Shown piece after piece: positions 7,201 to 57,201 of a DNA stretch of 64,000 nt. Each line of letters starts with the position of its first letter. The first letter of the stretch is position 1. Origin of the DNA: Arbacia lixula (lineage: Eukaryota; Echinodermata; Echinoidea; Arbacioida; Arbaciidae); the NCBI GenBank assembly GCA_963669155.1, contig OZ022576.1, forward strand, positions 37,851,807-37,915,806, written 5' to 3'. A program made the position numbers and the translations under genes. The notes beneath the pieces were generated by a model. That model was given only the letters and a program-made list of their open reading frames with translations, had not been told where the DNA came from and searched no databases.

Positions 7201-10200
7201 AGCACAAGATTACTGACTCACAGGTCTATGCATGAGTAGTTTCCGAATGCAGCCGTGATGTCCCTCCCTGTGGCCAGGAACTCTCCTTGAATGGTCACTC
7301 TGGTTCCCCCTGCTGCTAGCCCCACCGTGGGACTAAAACCAGCTATCACGGGGTCCTGCAAACACGGACATCAATATCCGCAGTAAAATATGTTTTCCGG
7401 AATTCAAGTTGCGGATCGGCCGCAGCACAGTGAGACTTGGCCGAGTGCGCTATGTGGGTGTCCATTCAAGCGCAAATAAAAGCATTTGGCAAAAAATCAC
7501 GTAGCACTTTGGCGCCATTGGTAATTAATACTCTGATTGCAAGAAAATTTGACGCCAGGAATGGTTAGTAGTTTTTCAGAGAAAGCTTGCTCTTCCAGTT
7601 TAGATATCATTGGTCAAGTGCAAAGCGTGCAATACTCTTAACCATATCATATAAAACGGATATTTCATAGCGAATGTGATAAAAGTTGAAATAATATCAC
7701 ACAATAAAATGCGGTTGGACTCATCTCTATACTTTAAAGTTCAATGATATATTTAACAGCTAGGAACAGTACAATACACATACACACAAGTTGTTCTTAT
7801 TAAAAATCTTGTGTAAATAAAGATACACAAATTGTGTGATCTCGCAACGCTATGATGACTGCTAATCTTAATACACATGATGCATATACCTTTCATATGA
7901 TGTAGGTATGTCGTGCAATCTTAGTACACACATTCTGCAACCATACATACGTTCATACATTGACATCCAGCATGTCAAGCGATTACATAACTGCGATAGA
8001 GGGAATCACTGTAAGGCCGATTGATGTTAAAATATATTATCCTATGTCCGGGGTGCAACTAAAAAGTTTGTCCTTGGAGTTGAATAACAAGATATTTCAG
8101 ATGAATAAAGTTATGAAGGATCATGCCTTTCCATGAAATCAGAAGAAATCTTAAAGACACGTACCCTGTACATGAAGCTCTGGTCACTGATTGTTGTGCG
8201 GATTTTAGTGTTATGATTCACAGTAATGATGACCTTTCCTGACGTCACCCTCTCTGAGTGGGTTGTTATACAGCTAACACTAAACAAGAGACAACAGAAT
8301 AGTGTATCTATATCCTTGTATTCATGGCACTAGCTTTTGTTAGTTTTCGTTTTGTTACCACATCTACTCAAAGAAAAAAATATATTTACACATGATACAC
8401 CAACACATAGTCACAAACACACATACACACAGTAACATACTGTACATACGAATATAGGTAATTACAATGGCGCTGAAATGAAAATCCAAATAAATAGAAA
8501 CACCATAGAATATAAGTATGTTTAACATTAGAAATACGATAAACACAGTCATCAGATCAATGTTAGAAATCATCTGTTGCGAGGTTCAAACAAGGCATTA
8601 GCAATATTGTGTCTCGCCCACTTGCGAAAATAACCAGAAATATCGCGATCTCCGTTGCTACGCAAAAGAAAACTGAAACAAACAAATAAGCAACTTTAAA
8701 CAGACAACATCAAAATCAGGTGCAAAATAGTGACTTTGAATAAATTTGCATAAATGTGCATGAGTAATGTTTGCCTAAATCTAGATCAGTAATGCTCACA
8801 CATGCTCACACAATTCTGTGCACAAGTTAGGAAGCCTTCACCAAGAGTCTTGCAAGTAAACTTTAATGTATGACCTCAAATGACCTTTGACCTTATCATG
8901 TGACCTCTTACATCACAATAACATGCAGGTGCCCCCAGTGCATCCATCATCCAAGTTTGATTGCCATTGTAGCAACATGTGATGAGTTATGTGTGATAAG
9001 AGAGTCTTGCAAGTAAACTTTAACGTATGACCTCAAATGACCTTTGACCTTATCCTGTGACCTCCAACGGTACCATAACATGAAGGTACCCCCAGTGCAT
9101 CTATGACCCAAGTTAGGTTGTAATCCAAGCAACCTATGTGAAGTTATTTGTCAAAAGAGAGTCTTGCAGGTAAACTTTAACGTATGACCTCAAATGACCT
9201 TTGACCTTATCCTGTGACCTCCAACAGCACCATAACATGTAGGTACCCCCAGTGCATCTATGACCCAAGTTAGGTTGTAATCCAAGCAACCCATGTGAAG
9301 TTATTTGTCAAAAGAGAGTCTTGCAGGTAAACTTTAACGTATGACCTCAAATGACCTTTGACCTTATCCTGTGACCTCCAACGCCACCATAACATGAAGG
9401 CACCCCCAGTGCATCTATGACCCAAGTTAGGTTGTAATCCAAGCAACCCATGTGAAGTTATTTGTCAAAAGAGAGTCTTGCAGGTAAACTTTAACGTATG
9501 ACCTCAAATGACCTTTGACCTTATCCTGTGACCTCCAACGCCACCATAACATGAAGGTACCCCCAGTGCATCTATGACCCAAGTTAGGTTGTAATCCAAG
9601 CAACCCATGTGAAGTTATGGATCATAAGAGAGTCTTGCAGGTAAACTTTAACATTTGTGACGGACGACGGACGACGGACGGACGACGGACGACGGACGGA
9701 CGACGGACGGACGACGGACGGACGACGGACGGACGCCATTTGGATCCCTTAGTCTCGCCTTCACCTCCGGTGGGCGAGACAAAAAGAACATCGATAGTCT
9801 AAGCTTCTGTTACAAACAGCTAACTCCATATATATCATTGTGTCACCGGGAAATTTAGTACGTCTGTTTCTTTCCGTGCTAACATTTGGTCAAAGATGCT
9901 CGTATCATACACGATACCAAAGCCAATCACTTATGATATAGAACTTTAGAAAAGTCAGAGAGAAAGAGCATGATTGATAAACGGTAATCTTCCAAGGGTG
10001 ATCGACGACGTAGAGACATAATAATCATTTTTAATGCACTATCACTATAGTAACATTATTCTGAATCATAACTGAAAATGACGGCAATCTACACGACTCG
10101 TTTAGAGTTGACTGACATGACTCGCTTCCTTACCTCTCACCAGGCCTGTAGTAGGCCGCCATGCCGTTCAGATCACAGATATAGTCTGCTACAGACACCA

Positions 10201-16200: not shown

Positions 16201-19200
16201 TTACAATTGTGAATGTAATGGCATATTAATAGAAAATATTTAATCTATAAAGGATCGCTAATTGAATTGAACGTACTATCAAAATGTTAATTTATCTGTC
16301 TAATTAGTGCATCTTTCCGCAAGTACTAACCATAACGAAAGTATGTAATAATATGATGCCCTATATAAGAATGTCCAAGCAAGTTAATGATAGTTAGTGA
16401 TAATAGGTGTAGGTTAGATTAGGCTTATTGTTAGATTATGAGTAGGCTAGGATTAGGGTTAGGCTATCCAAGTATGTATTAATTAATCAATAGGATTTAA
16501 TTAAACGGGCATTCCAGTTAAAAAGCGGAAATATTTTTTACAGTGATAGGAAGTCGGCTTGAATTAACGGTTACCTTAATTAAGTCAATGTCAAAGAACA
16601 GGATTTTCATTAATTCAACAACATTTTATTGCATGATAAATACAGGAAAGGACTGTCAATTTACAGAGCACTTATTAACGGGAACCTGTATATTAATGAG
16701 GCTGTATAATAACGGGAATGCGAAACTGTTCAATAACAAGGTGGTCAATAACGGGAACCTGTAAATTTACATTAGACTGTAAAAACACTGTATGAGGATG
16801 TGAAAAAACGGGCGTTCCTGGCGTCCCGGACTGCCAGGAAATTTCCCGTAAAAAAACGGTAATATTTTTTACAGTGTAGTAGTTCGTGCCCATGTCATGC
16901 ATGTGGGCACTAACACATGAAACATGACAACAGTTCATAAGCATAAGTTACTTATTGATAAATTTCGACCTGGGAAAGGATTTCTCTATTCGAATATATC
17001 TGCCTTGTATCTTTATTATGAATGGAACATACATTTTCGTTTTGTAAAAGACTAACGTAACATTTTATTGCCATAATAGGCAAATAGAGGCATAAGAAGG
17101 TGTCTGTACTTCCCCGAAATTGATAATGGGCATGGTGGTAGTCGGTGTTTTTGTTTGCAGAACACCAATTAACACTAAATGATTGTACTTGGATAATAAC
17201 CGAAACGCAAAGTAATTAAGCACTGACTTGCTGTTCGGTCTCCTCATACGGTATCTCGTTTCCTGGTTGCACATCTGAGATGCCGACACACTGTAAGGCG
17301 TTGTAGGGCAGCCAACGGGTAGACTCACTGGCTAGAGGACACTCCTCATATCGTGTGCACCTTGAGTAGTGCAGAAGACGAAGAAGGAAGGATCAAGGGT
17401 ATGACAGCATCATGAACCCTTCCAAAGATCAAACGAAACCTACGGTCTATGCACTGATGCCTGATTTATAATTTAAAACTAAATATAGGCCTAATAAGGT
17501 CATTGTCAATGTGAGAGAAAGGTTCTCTCACTGCGCCTATGAAAAAAGTTTGGTCACAATTAAGGTGCAAATGTTCCTTCATGAGAAATCTGAAACAGGC
17601 AAATCAAAACCTTAACGTATACAACGATGTACTGACGGACAAACGGACGGACAAACGGAATTTAGATTGGCATGTCACTGTATTCGTCAGGATGACACTG
17701 TAAATGCGATTGGAAATACCTTTACTAGCTTTCTGGTACTGTTATACGTTAATGACACGGGCATGTGTAAATTAATATTATGTTTCAACAAAACGATGGT
17801 AAAAGTCTACCTCGCTTCCAGTGTACACCAGCCACAGAATGGGTCTATGTCATTCCCGCCATTATCACCTATACACGCATCACACGTCTGGTACTGACCG
17901 CAGTTCACTAAGGATAACGTCACCACCTGCAATAGGAAGGGGTCGCGACATTGACAAGCCAATCCAAGCCAATCTATGCATTGTTAATGCAAAATCGAAT
18001 TATACCAATTCCACCATTGAAGCAATATAACAGTAAATGTTTCCATTAGAGTTTGTCGAAATCACCGACAGTGTATATTTGCATTACTCCGCCCTGGTAG
18101 GCGTACAATAGAGTGCGAATCGTGAAATAGAGAAATTACTGAGTGATAAAAAAATGATGTAAATGCAACTTTCAGTCCCGATAAGTTGCACATTGTGCGA
18201 TAGCACATCTTGACAATACTGTCATGTTTCACGCTAGCTTTAAAAATGGTGAACTCGATGATAATGGTAATGACAGTACGCACATACGATGGGGATTATG
18301 GAGCAGTGGGTCACATACCTGTGATCCGCTATCATCACTTGTTGCAAGGGTGAGTTGTTCCTTCTCTTCATCAAGGAAGATGTCGCGTAGAACAGACCCT
18401 CCTTCGAGGGGGACCGTTTCATACTCAGACGCAAATGTTGCATTTATAATTAAAATCTGTGATAAAGTGAATAGAAAAACAGACCGATAAAATAAAGGTT
18501 CTTTTGTTTTCAAGTCGAGAGAGTAATGCTTAGGCCTACAGGTAACTTGTTGCACAAGGAGATTGGTTTAAATAAAATTAGATTTTGAGGGAAATCCGGC
18601 ACCCTTAGTCATGAAAGCGCCTCTTTGAGAGCACACAAAATCATATCATTAACCTGTCAAACGTTATAAGCAGACCGATACCATATCCTATGCATAGTGT
18701 GTTACACAAGGCAATTTAAAGGTGAAAATATCATAAACCTAACCCATAACATTACGTGGCTTATTACCGTGATTACGAAAGTCAACCGTCAGTTTGTTTC
18801 TGGGTATGAAACACAACCTTGTTGTAAAACTTTTTGTGGGGTGTTTCACAAGCATGTTAAGTTTGTCCTTAATTGTCTGACTCAAACATGTTTATCAGTG
18901 ATGTTTTTCTTTTGTGTTCTTTACGTACCAGATTACGGTATTGTACTCTCTTATTTAAAATTTGTTAATAACAGGTTTCGTTTCATGATGAGATGAAAAC
19001 TTTCTGAACAAGGCTATTGTTGAAATGACAATTGTCCAAGAGAATATATCTGTTTAGATTTTACCTTATGAAGATCACCATCCTGCGTGCCAAGAAGAGC
19101 CACTGTATGTTCCCTGTCTCGTGTGGTGATGATGGAGGTTACCATGGTAGCAGGGAGGGAGAGGAGGGGAGTTCCTTCAACAGGTGTCACACCAGCAGCG

Positions 19201-22200
19201 TATCTATAGAAAAGATCATCTACCCAAAAAATTGAAGCTGTACACAGGTATCCATCATCTGGTGGTTGGTAATCTGACGGGGCTCCCACCTATGAAAGAA
19301 TACAAGTACGATGTATTACGAAGTATACAGTAGTTACCACGGGCTGTCCTACCTGATTTCAGATTACACAATTTAGTAATGTCTGATTGGGAGGAGGGGG
19401 GGGGGATATGTTTGATAGTAGGTACATGTATATTGTAAGATAATGTAAATGAATACAATAGTACTACAATTTGTTATAATGACTTTTTATGATATCCTCT
19501 GCATATGATCAATAAATTTCAACAAATGCAAAAAATCCTTATTTTTTTCATTTTTTTAAATGATTTGATATTTTGTATCAACATTGTGGTGCCCCCACAG
19601 AATATACCCTCCCCCACATTTTGTTTGGTTATATGAGTCCATTCATGTACATACACTGTACAATGGTCCCCCTTGTCCATTGTGTGTGTGCTCATTTGGT
19701 GAGAATGGACTCACCCGACCACAAGAACTGGGATACCGTGCGTGGATCCTCATTCTGTTTGGCCACACATCCATGGTATCACCAGTTTCTTCATTCTCTC
19801 GTCCTACATTTTGTATTTTCCTCCTACCCCAGACCGGCAATACAAAGTAAAAGTACTCTGCATTTTATATTACTTTTACTTTAACTTATCAGGACTCAAA
19901 AAAATAATTCAACCTATTATCGGGCTTATCATGGGTATAATTTCCTTTTCATAAAAACTTACTCATTCGGTCACATCTACCACCACCCACGTAGTCTATT
20001 GGTACTGCAGAATTGTCACCATCTATGATCTGAAAACTTTGCTGGGTGTCACAAATTACTATCCCCGATAAGAGATTCAATACTTACAATGCACAGTAAG
20101 CACCATCCACGTAGTCGATTAGTACTCGATCCGGAGTCGACATTGTCGTTGATGCAGCCGAGCACGGCTGTCTGAAAGCTTTGCTGGATGTTGCACAACT
20201 CACAGAACCATGCCAAACTAAAACATGAACAGAACCTAAGTCAATACTTACATTATCACAACGCACATACAGGTAGTTGATTGGTACTCCAGAATCGTCC
20301 CCTCACAGAACCATGCCAAACTAAAACATGAACAGAACCTAAGTCAATACTTACATTATCACAACCCCCATACAGGTAGTTGATTGGTACTCCAGAATCG
20401 TCCCCGTCTCTGATGCAGCCGAGCACCGCTGTTTCAAAGCTTTGCTGGATATCACTTATTATAGAGACATAGATCCATGTCAAACTAAAACAAAAATAGA
20501 GCCGAAGTAAACACAACAGAAAATCACAGTAAATCACAGACCCCGTCCAGGTAGTCAATTGGTACTCCAGATTCGTATCCGTTGTTGATGCAGCCGAGCC
20601 CCGGAGCCAAGCACGGTCGTCTGAAAGCTTTGCCGTATGTTACTTATTTTATAGAGACACAGAACCATGCCAAACTAAAACAAAAATAGAACCTAAGTCA
20701 ATACTTACAATTTATCAAAACGCCCATACAGGTAGTCGATTGGTATTCCAGATTCGTCCCCGTCTCTGATGCAGCCAGCTTTGTTGGATGTCACTCATCC
20801 TATAGAGACATATAATAGCCATGCCAAAATGAAACAGGAATAGAACCTAAGTAAATATACTTACAATATCACAGTCCCCATCCAGGTACTCGATTGGTTT
20901 ACCAATCCTGATGTTCCTGATGTTCCTGGATGTCACTCATCTTATAGAGACACAGAACCATGCTAAACTAAAACACAAATAGAATCAAGTAAATACTTAC
21001 ACTGTCAGTGTCACAGTAAGCACCATCTAGATAGTCGATTGGTACTCCAGAGTCGTCCCCGTCTCTAATACAGCCGAGCACGGCTGTCTGAAAGCTTTGC
21101 TGGATGTCACTCATCTTATAGAGACACAGAACCATGCCAAACTAAAACACAAATAGAATCTAAGTAAATACTTACAATGTCACAGGCAGCACCAGACAGG
21201 TACCTGTTAGGTACACCAGAGTCGTCGCCGTCTCTGATGCAGCCTAGCACGGCTGTCTGAAAGCTTTGCTGGATGTCACTCATCGTATACAGATACATAA
21301 TCAGGCCAAACTAAAACACAAATAGAACCTAATCAGATACTTACAATGTCACAGCTAGCACCATCCAGGTAGTCGATTGGTACACCAGAGTTGTCCCCGT
21401 ATCTGATGCAGCCGAGCACGGCTGTTTGAAAGCTTTGCTGGATGTCACTCATCTTATAGAGACACAGAGCAGACTCTGCCGCAGATGCCCCGTCTCCAAA
21501 CACAGCGTACAGGACGCCATCGGTATTGTTGATTCCCAATGAGTCAGCTAGCTGAGATCCTGCTGGACCAATGTGAGCTGCCTGGATCACGGTGTGAGAC
21601 CCGCACTGGAGTTCTATCTCAGTGTAGGATTCAAAGTTGTAATCCAGTGAATTCGGGCACAGCCGTCCTATGTATGCTTTACCATTCCTTTGCATGAAAT
21701 AGTACAAAAAATCCTTGTAGGAAATAACTTGCAGGAACATATTTTCAGTTGTATCATGTGAATGTATACTTACTATGAGAAATAATTCTGCCATATCATG
21801 TTTTGATACAACTTGAACATCATTACTAACTCCGGTAAACAAGTACAGTGCATTATTCAGTATACCGGTAGAAATATCAGCACCCAGGACCACAGCTCCT
21901 ACAGTAGGTGCATCTCCTGTGGCTACAACGCGCTGAATCCTACTGCCAGCATAACGTGTCACATCAGCCGAGATATCCTCCAAGCTCCTCGTCTCACAAT
22001 AACCATCACAGCCCCCACACGTGATGAGTCTATTCTCAGGTGATGGGACAACAACAAGGAGCTTGTTATCATTGAAGATGCCGTCATTGTCCTCAGTGCA
22101 TGGTCCTAGAGTCACAGTCTGTTTGAGAGTCAGGTCCGAACTAAGCTGATAGAGTCTTTCACGAGCTCCGATGTAGACATCTCCTGTGACGTTATTGATG

Positions 22201-22334
22201 GCGAGGTGGTTGAAAGGCAGGGAGGGGTCGGGACTGGTGAAGGAGGACACCAGGTATGAGGAGAGGGGAGCAGACTCGGTCAAGTGGGCCAGATGCAGAA
22301 TAGTGGCAGTGAGCACCAAGATTGACATGGCCAT
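1210..22334 (-). CDS. Plexin copy A, tandem paralogue truncated in the cytoplasmic domain
   Basis: This is a close paralogue of copy B with the same 24 exon sizes and phases, then a shortened exon 25. The joined exons give 4281 nt or 1427 residues before a TAG at 1210-1212, with no internal stop or frameshift that I can find. It keeps the signal peptide, sema, three PSI domains, IPT repeats, membrane helix and the first part of the GAP domain. It lacks the Rho-binding domain and the second GAP segment. Homology to copy B ends inside exon 25 at about 1217, so the tail is [12 protein letters not shown] then stop. Intact extracellular frames argue against a long-dead pseudogene. A decoy or co-receptor role is possible but is inference only. 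Unlike copy B, its first intron holds about 10 copies of a mini-exon. Confidence 0.88.
1664..1741 (-). CDS. Copy A exon 24: GAP segment 1, around the arginine finger
   Basis: 78 nt, phase 2 to 2, residues 1389-1415. It ends CGDMFC, and its last codon is completed by exon 25 as CAA (Gln). In copy B the matching codon is Arg, aligned with the second arginine of the plexin RRTES motif. Donor GTACGT. Confidence 0.8.
2046..2111 (-). CDS. Copy A exon 23: GAP segment 1
   Basis: 66 nt, phase 2 to 2, residues 1367-1389. It reads [20 protein letters not shown], equivalent to plexin NVASLIMTALQGEMEYATG. Acceptor CTTTAG, donor GTAAGT. Confidence 0.83.
2947..3062 (-). CDS. Copy A exon 22: GAP segment 1
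   Basis: 116 nt, phase 0 to 2, residues 1329-1367. It reads [20 protein letters not shown] then VLDFIKELD, matching plexin SLTLFGQLLTKKHFLLTFI. Acceptor TTCAAG, donor AAG|GTAGAA. Confidence 0.88.
3633..3793 (-). CDS. Copy A exon 21: start of GAP segment 1
   Basis: 161 nt, phase 1 to 0, residues 1275-1328. It reads [16 protein letters not shown] and [20 protein letters not shown], equivalent to the plexin GIPFLDYRTYAMRVLFPG segment. Acceptor CATCTAG. Confidence 0.9.
4128..4353 (-). CDS. Copy A exon 20: membrane helix and juxtamembrane segment
   Basis: 226 nt, phase 0 to 1, residues 1200-1275. A hydrophobic run from [20 protein letters not shown] (about 1224-1245) is followed by WKQRK and a coiled-coil-like segment [12 protein letters not shown], as in plexin juxtamembrane helices. 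Confidence 0.9.
4740..4937 (-). CDS. Copy A exon 19: IPT4
   Basis: 198 nt, phase 0, residues 1134-1199. [20 protein letters not shown] then [17 protein letters not shown] matches the plexin GRNLL...LNYTVLIG...C region. Acceptor ATTTTAG, donor GTAGTA. Confidence 0.85.
4995..5015 (-). pseudogene. Copy A relic of the 21-nt IPT4 microexon
   Basis: The acceptor CTTTTAG and VDDGAVL codons match copy B at 43074-43094. An 8-bp insertion just after them removes the GTACAG donor, so splicing at that position would not keep frame. Exons 18 and 19 are both phase 0, so skipping keeps frame and costs seven residues. Confidence 0.4.
5517..5753 (-). CDS. Copy A exon 18: IPT3 end and start of IPT4
   Basis: 237 nt, phase 0, residues 1055-1133. 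It starts [24 protein letters not shown] is a dibasic stretch that could be a furin-type site. It ends [12 protein letters not shown]...ILELK, matching the plexin FLYYPDPV...LLELK segment. Acceptor CCCCCAG. Confidence 0.87.
6139..6238 (-). CDS. Copy A exon 17: IPT3
   Basis: 100 nt, phase 2 to 0, residues 1021-1054. [20 protein letters not shown] is the IPT core strand pair. Acceptor TTGAAG, donor GAG|GTAAGC. Confidence 0.87.
6704..6877 (-). CDS. Copy A exon 16: IPT2 end and start of IPT3
   Basis: 174 nt, phase 2 to 2, residues 963-1021. It contains [20 protein letters not shown] and [17 protein letters not shown]. Donor GTAAGT. Confidence 0.87.
7222..7355 (-). CDS. Copy A exon 15: IPT2
   Basis: 134 nt, phase 0 to 2, residues 919-963. 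[20 protein letters not shown] then TIQGEFL is a typical IPT start (P..G...GGT.VTI.G..L). Acceptor TTGCAG, donor GTGAGT. Confidence 0.9.
8165..8273 (-). CDS. Copy A exon 14: IPT1 end
   Basis: 109 nt, phase 2 to 0, residues 882-918. It reads [20 protein letters not shown] and ends SDQSFMYR. Donor GTACGT. Confidence 0.86.
8590..9784. repeat. 157-bp satellite (6 units) plus GACG minisatellite, copy A intron 13
   Basis: Units begin GAGTCTTGCAGGTAAAC at about 8843, 9000, 9157, 9314, 9471 and 9628, exactly 157 bp apart. Each holds a TGACCT cluster. The block ends in a (GACGGAC)n stretch (about 9658-9735) and a conserved tail CTCCGGTGGGCGAGAC. The corresponding intron of copy B (about 46735) lacks it, so it is an insertion or local expansion in copy A only. 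Confidence 0.9.
10134..10288 (-). CDS. Copy A exon 13: IPT1
   Basis: 155 nt, phase 0 to 2, residues 831-882. It reads [20 protein letters not shown] then [13 protein letters not shown], a standard IPT/TIG opening. Confidence 0.88.
10693..10883 (-). CDS. Copy A exon 12: third PSI domain
   Basis: 191 nt, phase 1 to 0, residues 767-830. [19 protein letters not shown] and [10 protein letters not shown] are the PSI3 core. It ends in NGPVITD, which opens IPT1. Confidence 0.9.
11173..11263 (-). CDS. Copy A exon 11: linker before PSI3
   Basis: 91 nt, phase 0 to 1, residues 737-767. [15 protein letters not shown] matches the plexin LPVNLSVVWNG-type strand. Confidence 0.87.
11635..11733 (-). CDS. Copy A exon 10: PSI2-PSI3 linker
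   Basis: 99 nt, phase 0, residues 704-736. It reads [19 protein letters not shown] and ends TYVVCPERL. Acceptor GTCCAG, donor CTG|GTAAGG. Confidence 0.87.
12014..12151 (-). CDS. Copy A exon 9: PSI2-PSI3 linker
   Basis: 138 nt, phase 0, residues 658-703. It contains [19 protein letters not shown], comparable with the CPQI...VPVGV stretch of other plexins. Donor AAGA|GTAAGA. Confidence 0.87.
12438..12552 (-). CDS. Copy A exon 8: second PSI domain
   Basis: 115 nt, phase 2 to 0, residues 619-657. [20 protein letters not shown] is a clear PSI core. Acceptor TTCCAG, donor AGT|GTAAGT. Confidence 0.9.
12946..13045 (-). CDS. Copy A exon 7: linker before PSI2
   Basis: 100 nt, phase 1 to 2, residues 586-619. 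It reads SSVSVTLSVIATETDVSF, then [10 protein letters not shown], which contributes the first PSI2 cysteine. Acceptor TGCAG, donor GTACGT. Confidence 0.86.
14051..14204 (-). CDS. Copy A exon 6: PSI1-PSI2 linker
   Basis: 154 nt, phase 0 to 1, residues 535-586. It reads [20 protein letters not shown] and ends LPHIPAG, matching the small Ig-like linker between PSI1 and PSI2 of plexins. Confidence 0.86.
14330..14800. mobile_element. Foldback element, copy A intron 5
   Basis: Long inverted repeats: TCAATGACCATTGTGTATCA near 14486 pairs with ACACAATGGTCATTG near 14583, with outer arms (TTTTCACTTTTGGACAA and TTGGCCAAAGTGAAAAT) also paired. It is absent from copy B and related to the element at 14851-15415. 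No protein is encoded. Confidence 0.7.
14851..15415. mobile_element. 565-bp foldback MITE with long terminal inverted repeats
   Basis: Starts TAGGTGTTTAAAA and ends TTTTAAACACCTA. Subterminal CAAACCAGTTTCAAC pairs with GTTGAAACTGATTTG, and arms extend to a central GATGCATCATGCATC stretch. Non-coding. Inserted in copy A only. Relatives lie at 14330-14800, about 13440-13575 (fragment) and 26970-27270 (left half). Confidence 0.8.
15416..16876. mobile_element. Nested CACTGTAAAAAATA elements, copy A intron 5
   Basis: Left ends CACTGTAAAAAATA occur at about 15416, 15797 and 15919, and right ends TATTTTTTACAGTG near 16546 and 16876. Internal blocks (GACTTGTAAAATTACAAG) recur. This fits several insertions of one short inverted-repeat family into each other. 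Copy B has a clean empty site at about 51080. A gene-free zone of microsatellite-like AT DNA fills the rest. Confidence 0.7.
17228..17360 (-). CDS. Copy A exon 5: first PSI domain, end
   Basis: 133 nt, phase 2 to 0, residues 490-534. It reads [18 protein letters not shown], completing PSI1 (EEC and a tryptophan as in other plexins). The donor is GTCAGT. Confidence 0.87.
17811..17926 (-). CDS. Copy A exon 4: first PSI domain, start
   Basis: 116 nt, phase 0 to 2, residues 452-490. [13 protein letters not shown] and the PSI signature CGWCTLEAR are visible. Acceptor TTGCAG, donor GAG|GTAGAC. Confidence 0.9.
18319..18456 (-). CDS. Copy A exon 3: end of the sema domain
   Basis: 138 nt, phase 0, residues 406-451. 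It contains [20 protein letters not shown], the last sema blade, followed by the donor CAG|GTATGT. Confidence 0.9.
19065..19289 (-). CDS. Copy A exon 2: sema domain
   Basis: 225 nt, phase 0 on both sides, residues 331-405. It contains [15 protein letters not shown] and the conserved plexin late-sema stretch EHTVALLGTQDGDLHK. Acceptor TTTCATAG, donor AAG|GTAAAA. Confidence 0.9.
21001..21114 (-). other. Mini-exon copy 3: candidate in-frame cassette exon
   Basis: 114 nt, open in phase 0 (38 residues, ending CDTDS), two codons longer than the founder. It has an acceptor-like CTCTATAAG directly before the ATG and an intact GTAAGT donor. If included after exon 1 it would add 38 sema-like residues without breaking frame. 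Of all the array members it is the best candidate for a functional alternative exon. Splicing is inferred only. Confidence 0.5.
21176..21283 (-). other. Mini-exon copy 2 in the copy A array (open, acceptor changed)
   Basis: 108 nt, open in phase 0, starting [20 protein letters not shown], with an intact GTAAGT donor. The base before the ATG has changed so that the acceptor AG reads CG (TATACG). The same change is present in the equivalent copy in gene B, so it predates the gene duplication. It is separated from exon 1 and from copy 3 by 61-nt gaps. Use in mRNA is unproven. Confidence 0.6.
21345..22334 (-). CDS. Copy A exon 1: signal peptide and most of the sema domain
   Basis: 990 nt, phase 0 at the 3' end, residues 1-330. 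It starts [20 protein letters not shown], a hydrophobic leader. The sema region includes [20 protein letters not shown], typical of plexin sema blade 1, and [20 protein letters not shown]. The donor is ATT|GTAAGT at 21344. The last 108 nt are the founder of the downstream mini-exon array. Confidence 0.92.
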
Positions 22335-25509: not shown

Positions 25510-25614
25510 TGGGGAGAGAGTGAGAGAGAGAAGAGGGAGAGAAGGGGGAGAGAGAAAAAAAAACTGAAAAGGAAAGAATGAGAGAGGGGGGAAGAGGGGA
25601 AGAGAGAGGAGGGA

Positions 25615-25687
<73 letters not shown>

Positions 25688-25800
25688 TTGTAAAAGAGAG
25701 AATAAGAGAGAGAATGGGAGAGAGAGAGAAGAGAGGGAGAGAAAAAAAAAGAGGAGGGAAAAGAGGAGGGGGGGAGAGAAGAGAAGAAACGGGGCAGAGA
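25510..25800. repeat. (GA)n-rich polypurine tract
   Basis: Nearly pure purine for about 290 bp, with a clean (GA)n core at about 25630-25672. The long open frames here on both strands are low-complexity artefacts. Confidence 0.9.
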
Positions 25801-35300: not shown

Positions 35301-38300
35301 TTTGTTTTTATTTCCGTATATCAATAACAAACAACGAATGATGCAGAATTTCAGATACATAATATGGCGGATAGCCCATTTCAGCGGCGGCGGCATAATC
35401 ATTACCACTGTTTTTCATGTTTGTTTTTTAATAATCGCTTGCTCTTTCTCTGCCTATATAAAAGCTACTCTATGAGGGCTATCTGTATAACTGGTGTAAA
35501 ATTGCCACGATAGAGCACAAAGTGTTAATGTGACACATCTGAAACTTTGAACCCCGCTCTCAAAACTTTCGGTCCGCCATATGCCAAAAATACTAATACG
35601 CTCCCGGGGTAGCAAGGCTACCATTTCGAGCTCCGGGATATTTTTTTCAGGGCGCCTCGTTTAGAATCTGTGAAAAGTGTGATTTAGGAATTGAATATAT
35701 TTGGAACAAACACAGATTTGTTGATGACGCTTCGATGCCAGGCAATAGGTAGCCATCTACACTGCAAGATCGTTTGGGTAGTATGGCAACTCGACATCCG
35801 TAGTGAATCTGAAAGTAGTAGCGACACCACAATGCAACACATTTGAGAAGAAAATGGGATTTTGAAACACTACGTTTATTTCTAATTCAAAAATTAAAAA
35901 TTCCAAGTGAATACTACGTTTCGATACCAAAATCGTGATTTTAATGCTGTAAACTAACCACACGAATTCGAACCTAAGAATGTTTCTGTTCGAGATGCTT
36001 CCGCACGATTGGAAACACATGTTGTGGGAATTAGGATACGTTAGCATCGCTTTTCTTACAAGTCATGTCTGATATCATTACAGTTGTCATACACACGATG
36101 TTACTATAGGTGCACAAACTTCCCAATTATGAAAAACAACCTCGACTCTTTGGAGGTTGGAAACCAGTTATAATCCTACGTGGGAAGTATCATTGTTGAT
36201 TACGTATATTGCTAGAGGACAAATATGTTGCTCTAAATCAAATGTATACAGGAAACAGGTTCACTGTTTCGTGAGATGAACACGCACTGACCTTGTAGCT
36301 TTGGAGAGTATTCAATCGTGTTGGCCCTTGACCCATGGTGTTCTCATTGACCGTCTGTAGACGGATGCCCTTCCCGCCATCCTGATGCCACACTGTATGG
36401 ATTCATTCATTAGATATGGCAGATTTATAAATGCACATACGTACACACAACTATGGAAGTAGGAGACACGGATTTACGTCGTGTAGCAATTGGAATTACC
36501 GAACGACGTAATTATTTAGGTAGTGTGGCAATTCCAATTAATTCCGTGTTTTTGACGGTCTCCTGCTTCCATACACAACTCTACACACACATACAGACAC
36601 AGATATAGACAGACAGACAGTCACATACATATGTATATAATTACATGTATATATATACATACATGTACATACATACACCCACACACACAACGCCAGGCAA
36701 CGAGAAGTTTTAACCGTAATGTGCCGCAACTTACGATTTTATGCAGCATTGAACTACCTATACATACGTTATGTCCAAGTATTCCACTACTGACCAACGG
36801 TCAAACATATGTTTAATGTATTCGAATGGGGCTTTCTGTACATATGGACCTCGGAGGAACATCGTGAGGTTGTGATGTACTGTATTTTATAAAGACACAT
36901 AGACTGCAGTACGATAATCTGATGAATTATTGACACCTACCAAAGAGGGTCACGTACATGACGTGGGATGAACTTTAACCAATATATCTCCTTTAAACGG
37001 ACACCCAACTGAAACTTGTGATTAAGAGAGATATAGTGGAATCATAGCCTAGTTAGCTGATCGTATTCTACAGAGCTGTCTCAAAATATAATTGGAACTG
37101 CCCACGGTAGAGCTGTTCAAGAGAGTCATAAGGGCTAATAAGTCAATGGCAAAGACTTATAGACACTTTCCGATACAATCGATTCAGGTGGTTTAGAAGG
37201 GAAAAACTTGGTCAGAAATATATGTAAGTGGACAACGCAACTGAGAATTGTGATTAGGAGAGTGAAATCATGTTTAGTTAGATGGTAGTGCACAAAAATA
37301 ACAAAAGAAAGATGATCCGTTTTATAGTTTGACACGATGATAAAGCGCAATGTCACGTGATTTACCCAAGTCCAGCTCATTGGGGTCACGTAGAAGGAGA
37401 GTGTAGCTTTTCTTCCAGAGTGAGTCTAAGATCTTTTGCTTTGCCTGCTCAACACTGTCAACGTCCAGAACTTTGACTTCATGGTAGACCTTGTTGTCTT
37501 CGTCCACGATGAACAGAGTCTACATCAAGAGGCAACAACCTACACCAAGCTACATAAGGTGTCAAGAACATACACCAAGCTACATAAGGTGTCAACAACA
37601 TACACCAAACTACATGAGGTGTCAACAACTTACACCTAGCTACGTATGATGGTTTAACCAATATACGACAAGCTACATAAGGTGTCAACAACATACACCA
37701 AGATACTTAAGGTGTCAACAACATACACCAAGCTACATAAGGTGTCAACAACATACACCAATTTACACAAAGTGCCAACAACATACATCAAGCTACAGAA
37801 TGTGTTCTCGGCTTTGATTCAAGTTATAATGTAACATACGATCTCCCCAAAGGTAAAGTCACAAGCCAGAAGATGGTGGTAGTTGAGAGTGTAGTACGCT
37901 TCGCCGGTGATGGCGTCTATTGGGCCTCGCTCGCACTGGGTCTTCATTGCTTGGTACAGCATGTACAGTGGATGCATGGCGTAGCGCTGTGGGATGATGC
38001 AAAGATTAAGCAGGAATATAATCTCCAAGACGTAACACTTCCGTGTGATTACCGTGAGATCGTGAAATATTGTTGGAAAGTATTGGTTATGTGCATAAGT
38101 ACGCTACAAGGAATACACAAGAACCGTTTATCATTTCATAAGTACTAAATTTAGATAGTAAATACCTTCTTTTGCAGAATATACCAACACGAGGACTCTT
38201 CATTCTTGACTACCCTCAGATGCCATTGGTATATATAGGGGCATGGTTAAACTCGATCAACCCAGATACATCACAAAGAAATGTTTGTTATTTATATTCA

Positions 38301-53300: not shown

Positions 53301-54452
53301 CAGCAAATTAGAAAATGAAATGGAATGTTTGAGAGTAAAGGTCATGTAACCATCGTGACAAACATTATTAAGGGACCGATACAGTATCCCATGCGTCGCG
53401 TGTTGCACAGGGCAATTTAAAGGCGCATATTTCCTTAAAATGGTTACATAACATTATTAGGCTCATGACCATGGTTGCGAGAGCGTCTGCAATATGAGTC
53501 AGTTTGTTTCTGAGTATGAAAATCATTCTTCTTGTAAAAACGTTTTTATGATGTGTGTCACAAAGAATGTTGCGTTTGTTCTTAGTCTGACTTCATCATT
53601 CATCACTGATGTTTCCTTTTTGGAAATGTTCTTTACGTACCAAGAATCCAAGTGTCTATGTGAATGTATATGTTTATTAGGCTTATGTACCAATTAAACT
53701 TGCTACATTTCATGACTAAAATTTTGCTTTACAGAGATAAGAAAGTTATAAGCGTATTCTTAATAGAGGTGTTATCGAGATGACAAAATGTCTGAAGGAA
53801 TTATATGCATTTCTATTTAGATATTACCTTGTAAAGATCACCATCCTGTGTCCCGACTACAGCAACCGTGTGTTCCCTGCCTCGTGTGGTGATGATGGAG
53901 GTTACCGTGGTAGCCGGGAGAGTGAGGAGGGGAGCTCCCTGAACGGGTGTCATACCAGCAGCGTACCTATAGAAAATACTACCGCTCCCTACAAGTGAAG
54001 CTGTACACAGGTAGCCATCATCTGGTGGTTGGTAACCAGATGGGGCTCCCACCTATGAAAGAATACAATTACGATGTGTTACAAAGTATACAGTAATTAT
54101 CATGGGCTGTCCTACCTGATTACAGATTCAGTTCAGTTCAGTTCACTTCACTTCACTTTATTTTAGCCCGGTGACCCACCTCAGCCAAAGGCTGTTTTTC
54201 AGGGGGCCGTGCATGATAAAAACATAACACATCACACATTTGAACATAAAAACATTCTCAAAAGAACATACTAAAATATACAAACAAAACAAACACATTA
54301 CATACCTAATACTTAATTTACAAGAAGGAAAAGCAAAGCAAAAAAGATATCTTGAAGAGAGAGAAAGACTACTTTTGTTCTATCATTAATACATGTGATT
54401 CTAGATTACACAATTTAGTCATGTCTGTGGTAGCGAAGCCAGGGGATGTGTG

Positions 54453-54695: not shown

Positions 54696-57201
54696 TTTAG
54701 CTTAACTCGAAATGAGCAGAGGTACAGGAACGGGTGTGTGAGGAATGTGTGTGACGGGGTGATCAGTGGGATGGGGGGGGGGGGAGTGGGTTTGACGTCA
54801 GTAGCATGTCTTTATTTCCTTTTTATCTTTTTGTTAACCTCCATTATTTCATGGAATCAGGGCTTTGAATATACAGTTTTGTTTATGCATCTTAGTCAAT
54901 AATTTTTAATTTACCTAATTTTATTTAAAAATGTTATTGATATATTTTTTGTTTATAAATACTAAGTTAACATTTGAAATATTTTTGTGTCGTATATTCA
55001 ACTGTAAATGTTTTTTGCATATTTGGAGGAATAAAAATCACTTAAATAAAAAAAAAAAGTGTGTGTGTGTGTTGTGTGCATGTGTGTGTGTGTGTGCATG
55101 TGTTTGTGTGTGTGTGGATGGTGGAAACAGAGGGATTTAACTCTTATGGGCAAAGTGCATCTACTAAAAACTTATGCCTTATCGAAATTGAATTATGTCT
55201 CATCTCTTATATTAGTCCCCAAGTGGGTATATGTGGAAGTGGAAAAACTATCTTTTGAATTTTTATGGGGAGGAAATGATCGAGTAAAAAGAAATATTAT
55301 GTATCAGGATTACGACTATGGGGGTATGAAGATGACTAACTTTACGCTATTTGTTAAAACACAACGTGTAATGTGGTTGAAACGGTTAATATATGGAGAA
55401 AAAGAAATGGGCTGGAAGTTACTTTTTGACTACTGTTGCAAATCAGTAGGAGGAAGACTTATCTTTTTATGCGACTATGAGATATCCAAACTAGAATTAA
55501 ACATTCCGCGGTTTTATTCAGAGATTTTGAAAGCTTGGCAGGATTTGAAGGAAGTGCGACAAGGAAAAGGGAAAGTTTTGAATCCAATAATTTTTAATAA
55601 TAGGAACATATGCCTAAAAGGTAAGATGATATTTAATAATAATTTATATGATAAGGAAATTTACTTCATTAAGGATTTAGTGTTTCAAGGACTCATGAGA
55701 CCAGTGGAACATTTTCAGAACTTGGAGATTAACTGTGACGATTTACTTTTAATTAATGATATATTTAAAGTGATACAAGAAGTTTTAAAAGATGACACGG
55801 TTGTGGTTAAATTTCACGAGGTTGATATAGCGAATTTTGATATAGGATTAAATATTTCCGAACAAAACGTAATGTTTAGAGACATAAAATCCAGAAAGGT
55901 ATATGATTACTTGGTTAAAGAATTAAGAAAATTATTTGTATTGCAGATTAGTGATAACCAAACTGTTTTCCAGTTTACTGAAAAGCAAATTACGGAGACA
56001 TATAGTGGTTTGAGAAGCATGACTCTCATTAGGAAACACAGGGAATTCCAATATAAATTATTACATAGAGCTATATATACGAAAGAGCAGCTCTCAAAAT
56101 TTGGTTTTGTAACAGATAATCTGTGCTCGTTTTGTCACCAGGAAGTTGAGACATATATCCATGTGTTTTTAAACTGCCCAAAAGTTAAGGAAGTCTGGCA
56201 AATTGTGATTCAGTTGTTTGAATTAACAGAAGTTGCAACTTTGGATGGAAGGATATATTCGTCGGTCTTCCGGGTAAATCTATAAGAATAAAATTTGTTA
56301 ATACGCTGATAGTTATGGTAAAATATATTATATTTAAATCTAGAACAGGATCTACTCTTCCCTCATCAAGGAAAATACAACGGGATATTTTGAACTATAG
56401 AGAGGAGGAAAAGAAATTGGCAATTAAAAGGGTTAAATTGGGACTACATTTGCAAAAGTGGGAATATATTGACAGGGTAATTTAATAGACTATGTAGGTT
56501 GTTTTATGTAATAACATGTATAATTATTTACAACAACAAAATAACGGGAAAGGTTAGTTTAATAGACACTATAAGATATTTATGTAACATATGATTATTT
56601 ACACAAATATAATTGGAAAGGTTATATGATACTGCTTTGGTAGGTTATGGAAAGATTTTTTTTTAAACTATGACAGTTGTGAACGCGGGAGTAAAGAGGG
56701 GAGCGTGAGCAGGTTGGGGAAGGTAAGGGTGGGGGTTGAGGTGGAGGGTTAAAAGGAAGGGGGTATACATGTAGAAGTTAGTTTTTTTTTTTTTTTTTTT
56801 TTTTTTTTGGGGGGGTGGGTATATAGCGAATTTAAGGGAAGGGTAGTTTAAGCGGTTCTGTATATGGTTGGGGTGGGTTGGTGTCAGGGGCTTGGGGGGG
56901 GGGGTGGCTGTCCAGATGGGAGTTAAGAATGGCTAGGACTAATTTTAGGGGTGTATTATAGGTTGGGGGATTAGTGGACTTGTTTATTTAAAACTTGATT
57001 CCGGAAGCTATTCGTTCAGTTTATTTGATTAAACATCGTTACATGATTATAACAATTGAGTAATTATGTTTAATATTCTCAGCTATTTTATTGTAATTAA
57101 TTTGTACTTACAAATGCATATATATATATATAATTTGTATTATGGAATCAGAATAAAGATCATTGAAAAAAAAAGTGTGTGTGTTTGTGTGTGTGTGTGT
57201 G

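Follow-up and report, generated by a model that had tools for sequence, protein, structure and literature searches.

The window analysed here, a 64-kb stretch of DNA, carries two plexin genes in tandem on its minus strand, hereafter copies A and B, and comparison of the window with itself gives matching pieces between 1217–24802 and 38508–63882. Lytechinus, Strongylocentrotus and Diadema plexins make up the best 12 database matches, at 40–52% identity, so that the host is very probably another echinoid; plexins in the PDB are matched by sequence too, and the Pfam Sema family PF01403 matches at 3.2e-7 and 7.9e-7. Exon 1 of copy A (21345–22334, minus strand, as for all gene and unit coordinates below) is an open frame of 330 codons that encodes the protein start and the first part of the sema domain, ending in ATT followed by the donor GTAAGT; exon 2, with 75 codons in phase 0, lies at 19065–19289. 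Copy B has an open exon 1 of the same 330 codons (58015–59004), an exon 2 of 75 codons (53828–54052) and further plexin exons within 32293–53167, identified by similarity and with boundaries that are partly predicted; tblastn with four echinoid plexins follows successive exons down to 32293. Copy A extends past the window edge. Five introns of copy B, as given by predicted exons, measure 161, 474, 660, about 800 and 3962 nt, the value of about 800 nt resting on an uncertain exon start.

Within intron 1 of copy B, a plus-strand frame of 411 amino acids with a zf-RVT match (PF13966) at 55050–56282 is probably a LINE remnant, and may be part of the reason for the longer intron of this copy. Other repeats in the window are a tandem repeat inside copy A (8844–9652; period 157 bp, 5.2 copies, 93% matches), a 30-bp tandem repeat of 9 copies that adjoins a predicted cytoplasmic exon of copy B (37533–37805) and GA-rich simple repeats at 25512–25787, approximately 0.7 kb beyond the point where the duplication last matches on its upstream side. 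The accessible part of PMC8634487 proposes that GA repeats form the edges of SpTransformer duplications.

The end of exon 1 is followed in both copies by an array of its own copies. The live segment comprises the last 36 codons of the exon, ending in CDI, and lies at 21345–21452 in copy A and 58015–58122 in copy B. Tandem Repeats Finder (TRF) detects a period of 169 with 3.2 copies and 86% matches at 20926–21468, together with a 103-bp pair (98% matches) at 20199–20405. A profile built from the units matches ten times past the live exon end in A, with E-values from 3e-52 to 7e-4, and twice in B; merging two A matches that flank a deletion leaves nine A units, so that A consists of the exon-1 end plus nine units and B of the exon-1 end plus two. 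With the exon-1 copy counted, these profile matches bear out the roughly ten copies in A and three in B of the preliminary description, which also correctly recognized the piece as a plexin sema exon end in phase 0 and the two arrays as alike at both ends and different in the middle. Its unit of 108 nt of exon plus 61 nt of intron needs adjustment: 169 nt is the exact step in the first three A copies, the other steps being approximately 103–190 nt, and the 61 nt can be split by eye into an intron part of about 45 nt and a 16-nt copy of exon-1 sequence (TCTGTGTCTCTATAAG). A unit is thus made up of 108 nt of coding sequence, a donor with intron, and 16 nt copied from exon 1 just upstream of the segment.

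Two acceptors are possible in the array, TATAAG before an ATG and TTTTAG 27 nt upstream. Starting from exon 1, unit 1 of copy A (21167–21330) keeps an open phase-0 frame of 135 nt from TTTTAG, and has TATACG, with no AG before the ATG, in place of the TATAAG that a 108-nt exon requires. Unit 2 (20993–21160) is intact by both acceptor definitions, giving open exons of 114 or 141 nt (the latter in phase 0 from TTTTAG) with a GT donor, and is on these sequence features the best mini-exon candidate. Of the following units, unit 3 (20857–20986) has a frameshift and stops, unit 4 (20700–20847) a deletion, stops and TATAGG, unit 5 (20533–20694) TATAAA and no aligned donor, and unit 6 (20346–20503) an open 105-nt frame and a GT donor without the AG. 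Unit 7 (20243–20340), which sits within the 103-bp duplication at 20199–20405, is the one merged from two matches (20304–20340 and 20243–20302) around an internal deletion. Unit 8 (20079–20237) retains AG, GT and an open frame, is divergent, and clusters in the tree with the first unit of the paralogue L010 (support 100/96; L-numbers denote exon-1 loci fetched from the assembly, A and B being taken from the window). Unit 9 (19961–20055) is partial, has lost the GT of its donor and is the probable counterpart of unit 2 of copy B (57734–57815), also partial. Unit 1 of copy B (57843–57998) resembles its counterpart in A, with TATACG, an open phase-0 frame of 129 nt from TTTTAG and the donor GTAGGT.

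The repeated segment in the plexin fold

An AlphaFold model of exon 1 only, and hence of part of the propeller, has a mean pLDDT of 81, falling to 54–65 in the loop of the segment, and its best Foldseek match is Drosophila Plexin A (6fkm_A; TM 0.72 of the query). In the model, a strand at residues 288–294 is followed by a helix at 295–310 and then by a loop flanked by cysteines; in an alignment of 32 sequences, Cys309 never varies and Cys328 almost never. The extrusion of sema domains is described, in the accessible part of PMC4308982, as inserted between the C and D strands of the fifth blade. By our own strand count on the model, the segment is placed at the start of this extrusion; Pfam, PDB and Foldseek agree with a sema propeller that has its extrusion in blade 5, the blade assignment being ours.

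Twenty-six non-redundant copies of exon 1 share a conserved helix (pN 0.039, pS 0.325), followed by a variable loop between Cys309 and Cys328 (pN 0.293, pS 0.466). With a pN/pS of 0.63, the loop gives no demonstration of diversifying selection. Further variable stretches lie at residues ~75–84 and 129–200, with a pN/pS of 1.24 in the residue window from 189. Again by our own count on the model, residues ~75–84 would occupy the 1D-2A position, and the accessible part of PMC3405059 names the 1D-2A loop as a determinant of specificity for two related proteins, RON and Met.

Splice sites, reading frames and selection in the units

We labelled 91 units next to exon 1 of the paralogues described below, 41 of them complete in the sense of having both ends of the 36-codon segment, with near-duplicate loci counted separately; a non-redundant recount keeps 77 of the 91, 35 of them complete. 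In a Dscam-type array, most units would be expected to combine functional splice sites with an open frame. Here, acceptor, donor, frame and openness for a 108-nt exon coincide in 6 of 41 complete units (6 of 35 non-redundant), and 13 of 41 have a GT donor together with some acceptor, up to 75 nt away, that gives an open exon in frame; most complete units have stops, frameshifts or lost splice sites. Complete segments labelled as exon 1 are in frame and open in 31 of 33 cases, in a set that includes some broken or downstream exon-1 pieces. The TATAAG motif is also coding in exon 1, and its presence there therefore needs no splicing.

Five units, namely units 1 and 2 of copy A, unit 1 of copy B and units 1 and 2 of L011, retain TTTTAG or TTTCAG, a GT donor and an open frame, and their acceptors have a pyrimidine fraction of 0.64–0.79, compared with 0.64–0.86 in 11 predicted acceptors of copy B. 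In both A and B, the TTTTAG exon start of unit 1 is 34 nt from the exon-1 donor, as opposed to at least 161 nt for the five measured introns of copy B, and joining of unit 1 to exon 1 is therefore unlikely. Inclusion of unit 2 of copy A, which begins ~200–230 nt from the exon-1 donor, is possible on the strength of its sites and frame. Fourteen of 17 echinoderm homologues contain the segment once and three lack it, as judged by one motif pattern; these homologues are cluster representatives and may for that reason hide isoforms. An apparent extra conservation of unit donors (GTAAGT in 19 of 39, 11 expected) was set aside, since the ends of the alignments favour matches there.

Stops occur at 44 of 2478 codons in the 91 units, compared with 41.8 ± 5.9 expected under drift from the consensus, and at 31 of 2083 codons in the 77 non-redundant units (35.1 ± 5.7 expected), whereas the exon-1 copies have none in 1214 codons. 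For the helix, pN/pS rises from 0.15 in exon ends to 0.52 in units. At the level of sequence, these counts show constraint on the live exon ends and, in the intron copies, a gathering of stops as drift predicts. Amino-acid changes in units are below the drift expectation, both in the full set (876 against 1042 ± 16) and in the non-redundant one (725 against 859 ± 14), a deficit that we read as a memory of earlier life as live ends. Weak present constraint on a few units is possible. Unit pairs within the A/B clade mostly have a pN/pS of 0.3–0.9, with 1.35 and 1.25 in the two pairs least diverged by pS (L011 unit 2 with L012 unit 1, and L012 unit 1 with L014 unit 1). A 'last in, first out' stack, with decay increasing away from exon 1, was considered and found no support (rho -0.16, p 0.15, for 77 units with four near-duplicate loci dropped); the last unit alone is more decayed (p 0.002).

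Probable exchange within the paralogue family

A search of the same assembly (607 Mb, 590 contigs) matches exon 1 over 600 nt or more at no fewer than 34 places. They form clusters on contig C1 at 35.97–36.08, 37.83–38.07 and 49.96–51.64 Mb, with one further place at 21.6 Mb on C1 and two on C57. Exon 1 is open and has its donor in 29 of the 34; the other five are a second copy in L015 with a frameshift and a stop in the exon end, a second copy in L016 with no donor aligned, a split match with a frameshift (L019), a partial locus (L039) and a broken one (L040). A match to exon 2, partial in some cases, lies downstream of 28 of the 29 open copies, L018 having none within the fetched stretch. 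At least one unit lies beside 26 of the 29, that of L018 being a 46-nt match only, and the profile search of the fetched loci found no unit in L021, L022 and L037. Because units accompany so many of the paralogues, the array predates the duplication that gave A and B and is older than first proposed, although the long array of copy A may be its own expansion.

Conflict between the two parts of exon 1 points to exchange. The exon-end alignment, which includes 45 nt of intron, rejects the tree of the exon body by 260 log units (AU p = 0.0005), the exon-body alignment likewise rejects the exon-end tree, and a PHI-type test on exon 1 (own script) is exceeded in 0 of 3000 permutations. The exchange is not total, since a weak correlation persists between body and end distances (Mantel r 0.26, p 0.017). 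The clustered paralogues on C1 thus have mosaic sequence from recombination, and the 29 open exon-1 paralogues appear, from their sequences, to be a plexin clade with a conserved framework, several variable loops and a recombination mosaic.

Exon ends of some genes correspond to units of others. The exon ends of L028 and L032 cluster with unit 1 of L025 (99/91), and that of L031, which the tree omits, matches the same unit at 91%. The bodies of L025 and L028 are 90% alike and their ends different, and the L028 end through its next unit is collinear with L025 from unit 1 onward (91.6% over 310 nt), from which it follows that L025 has an extra block of ~230–245 bp. L030 and L034 have a layout resembling that of L025 and L028: the exon end of L034 is 92% identical to a unit of L030, with bodies at 79% and moderate tree support (93/60). 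The exon end of L013 is closest to unit 1 of L011 (93.8%, bodies 82%), with support again moderate (90/87). The comparisons show three such unit/exon-end correspondences between paralogues, whose direction and mechanism we infer.

Exchange between genes may also have taken place just upstream of the exon end. L033 (C1:51598500–51605500) and L027 (C1:51213600–51220600) have 81% identical exon-1 bodies; from position 2221 of L033, ~135 nt upstream of the segment, and on through the array to the end of the fetched stretch they are 95–100% identical in 60-nt windows over 4.7 kb, with two exceptions at 85 and 90%. By this pattern, L033 is a putative young chimera, with a divergent exon-1 body on a near-identical downstream gene and the join just before the exon end. 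The stretch directly before the repeated segment, residues 243–291, is a 'seam' of low variation, at 58132–58278 in copy B and, by derived coordinates for the same residue numbers, 21462–21608 in copy A. Its codon heterozygosity among 26 paralogues is 0.093 compared with 0.210 (p = 5e-5), and a block as low anywhere arises in 5 of 2000 permutations, for a block picked after seeing the variation profile. In L025, L026, L030 and L040, further pieces of exon 1 follow the live end; they start at residues 221–277, near the seam. The likeness of the seam may come from gene conversion or from synonymous constraint.

Origin of the array and its meaning for the family

We consider it probable that the array consists of duplicated, mostly retired ends of exon 1. 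In this large, mosaic plexin family, unequal recombination would have struck the 3′ end of exon 1 again and again, leaving a run of copies in which each unit is the copied first part of the extrusion (the helix and the Cys-loop-Cys) with its donor and a piece of intron. Selection keeps the live exon end, and the intron copies collect stops; over evolutionary time the live loop would be replaced by recombination between an exon end and a unit, or between paralogues near the similar seam just upstream. Such exchange, presumably by unequal crossing over or conversion, could turn exon ends into units or units into exon ends, and transcripts would join exon 1 straight to exon 2.

Neutral tandem-repeat turnover within each intron, without any exchange with live exons and with the likeness across genes due to ancestry and noise, is an account that we find rather improbable. 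The near-neutral rate of stops fits it, as does the grouping of units by place (L025_3559 with L038_2314 and L011_2798 with L012_2543, both 100/100); the collinear layouts of L025 and L028 and of L030 and L034, and the conflict between exon-end and exon-body trees, do not. Neutral expansion, named in the preliminary description as the main alternative to its isoform array, thus does better than that array and is mostly right, but it leaves out that the units are part of a recombining family and in places match live exon ends. The isoform array itself, in which one or more units would be spliced in frame between exons 1 and 2 to give isoforms with a second extrusion start, is unlikely and not supported as first proposed. 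Unit 2 of copy A, the other four units with acceptor, donor and open frame, their pyrimidine fractions and a pN/pS below 1 in most unit pairs of the A/B clade would all suit it. Against it, few complete units are intact, stops are near neutral, the intron before unit 1 would measure 34 nt, pN/pS exceeds 1 in the two pairs that have diverged least, none of the homologues (as cluster representatives) has more than one segment, and an included unit would give the extrusion another helix and Cys loop beside those of exon 1.

Two further readings concern the variable loop. That the plexin family is a hypervariable receptor system, in which silent extrusion cassettes template germ-line rewriting of an exposed Cys loop, relevant to populations and perhaps acting in immune cells, is highly improbable. 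Also highly improbable is a silent store whose units act as donors for templated change of the live loop, whether somatic or programmed in the germ line: the loop does vary among genes (pN 0.29) and lies in the extrusion, and units do resemble live ends of other genes, but most complete units have stops, frameshifts or lost splice sites, and recombination over evolutionary time accounts for the data.

The array can be compared with several known systems. Dscam-type tandem alternative exon arrays likewise repeat a phase-0 segment between two constant exons; in the plexin genes, however, a copy is already part of exon 1, damage affects most complete units, the first unit lies very near the exon-1 donor and stops accumulate without sign of selection. 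New introns or exon ends can arise when an exon–intron border is duplicated, and the 169-nt plexin unit likewise spans such a border, but here the copies lie beside 26 of 29 paralogous exons and some resemble live ends. The SpTransformer (Sp185/333) genes of the purple sea urchin are, like these, a clustered echinoid family with mosaic sequence; they encode a different protein, and their repeats are inside a coding exon, whereas the plexin repeats are in the following intron. Expansion of plexins, with which the present genes share the sema fold, is known in echinoderms: the accessible part of PMC6374515 gives 11 plexins in Acanthaster planci and cites an expansion in S. purpuratus too. Compared with the expansions described in that part, the present one is a single clade with at least 34 exon-1 places and a variable Cys loop, and has a mosaic exon 1 and an exon-end array. 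A literature search, covering mainly papers outside subscription, found neither an exon-end array in plexins nor a hypervariable family of plexins described.

The array is a caution that repeated exon ends need not be alternative exons. Plexins are best known as guidance receptors. The mosaic exon-1 part of the sema domain, with loops that vary among some 30 genes, the extrusion included, suggests from sequence a possible recognition role of this family beyond guidance, and the family would offer a visible route for the exchange of one exposed receptor loop.
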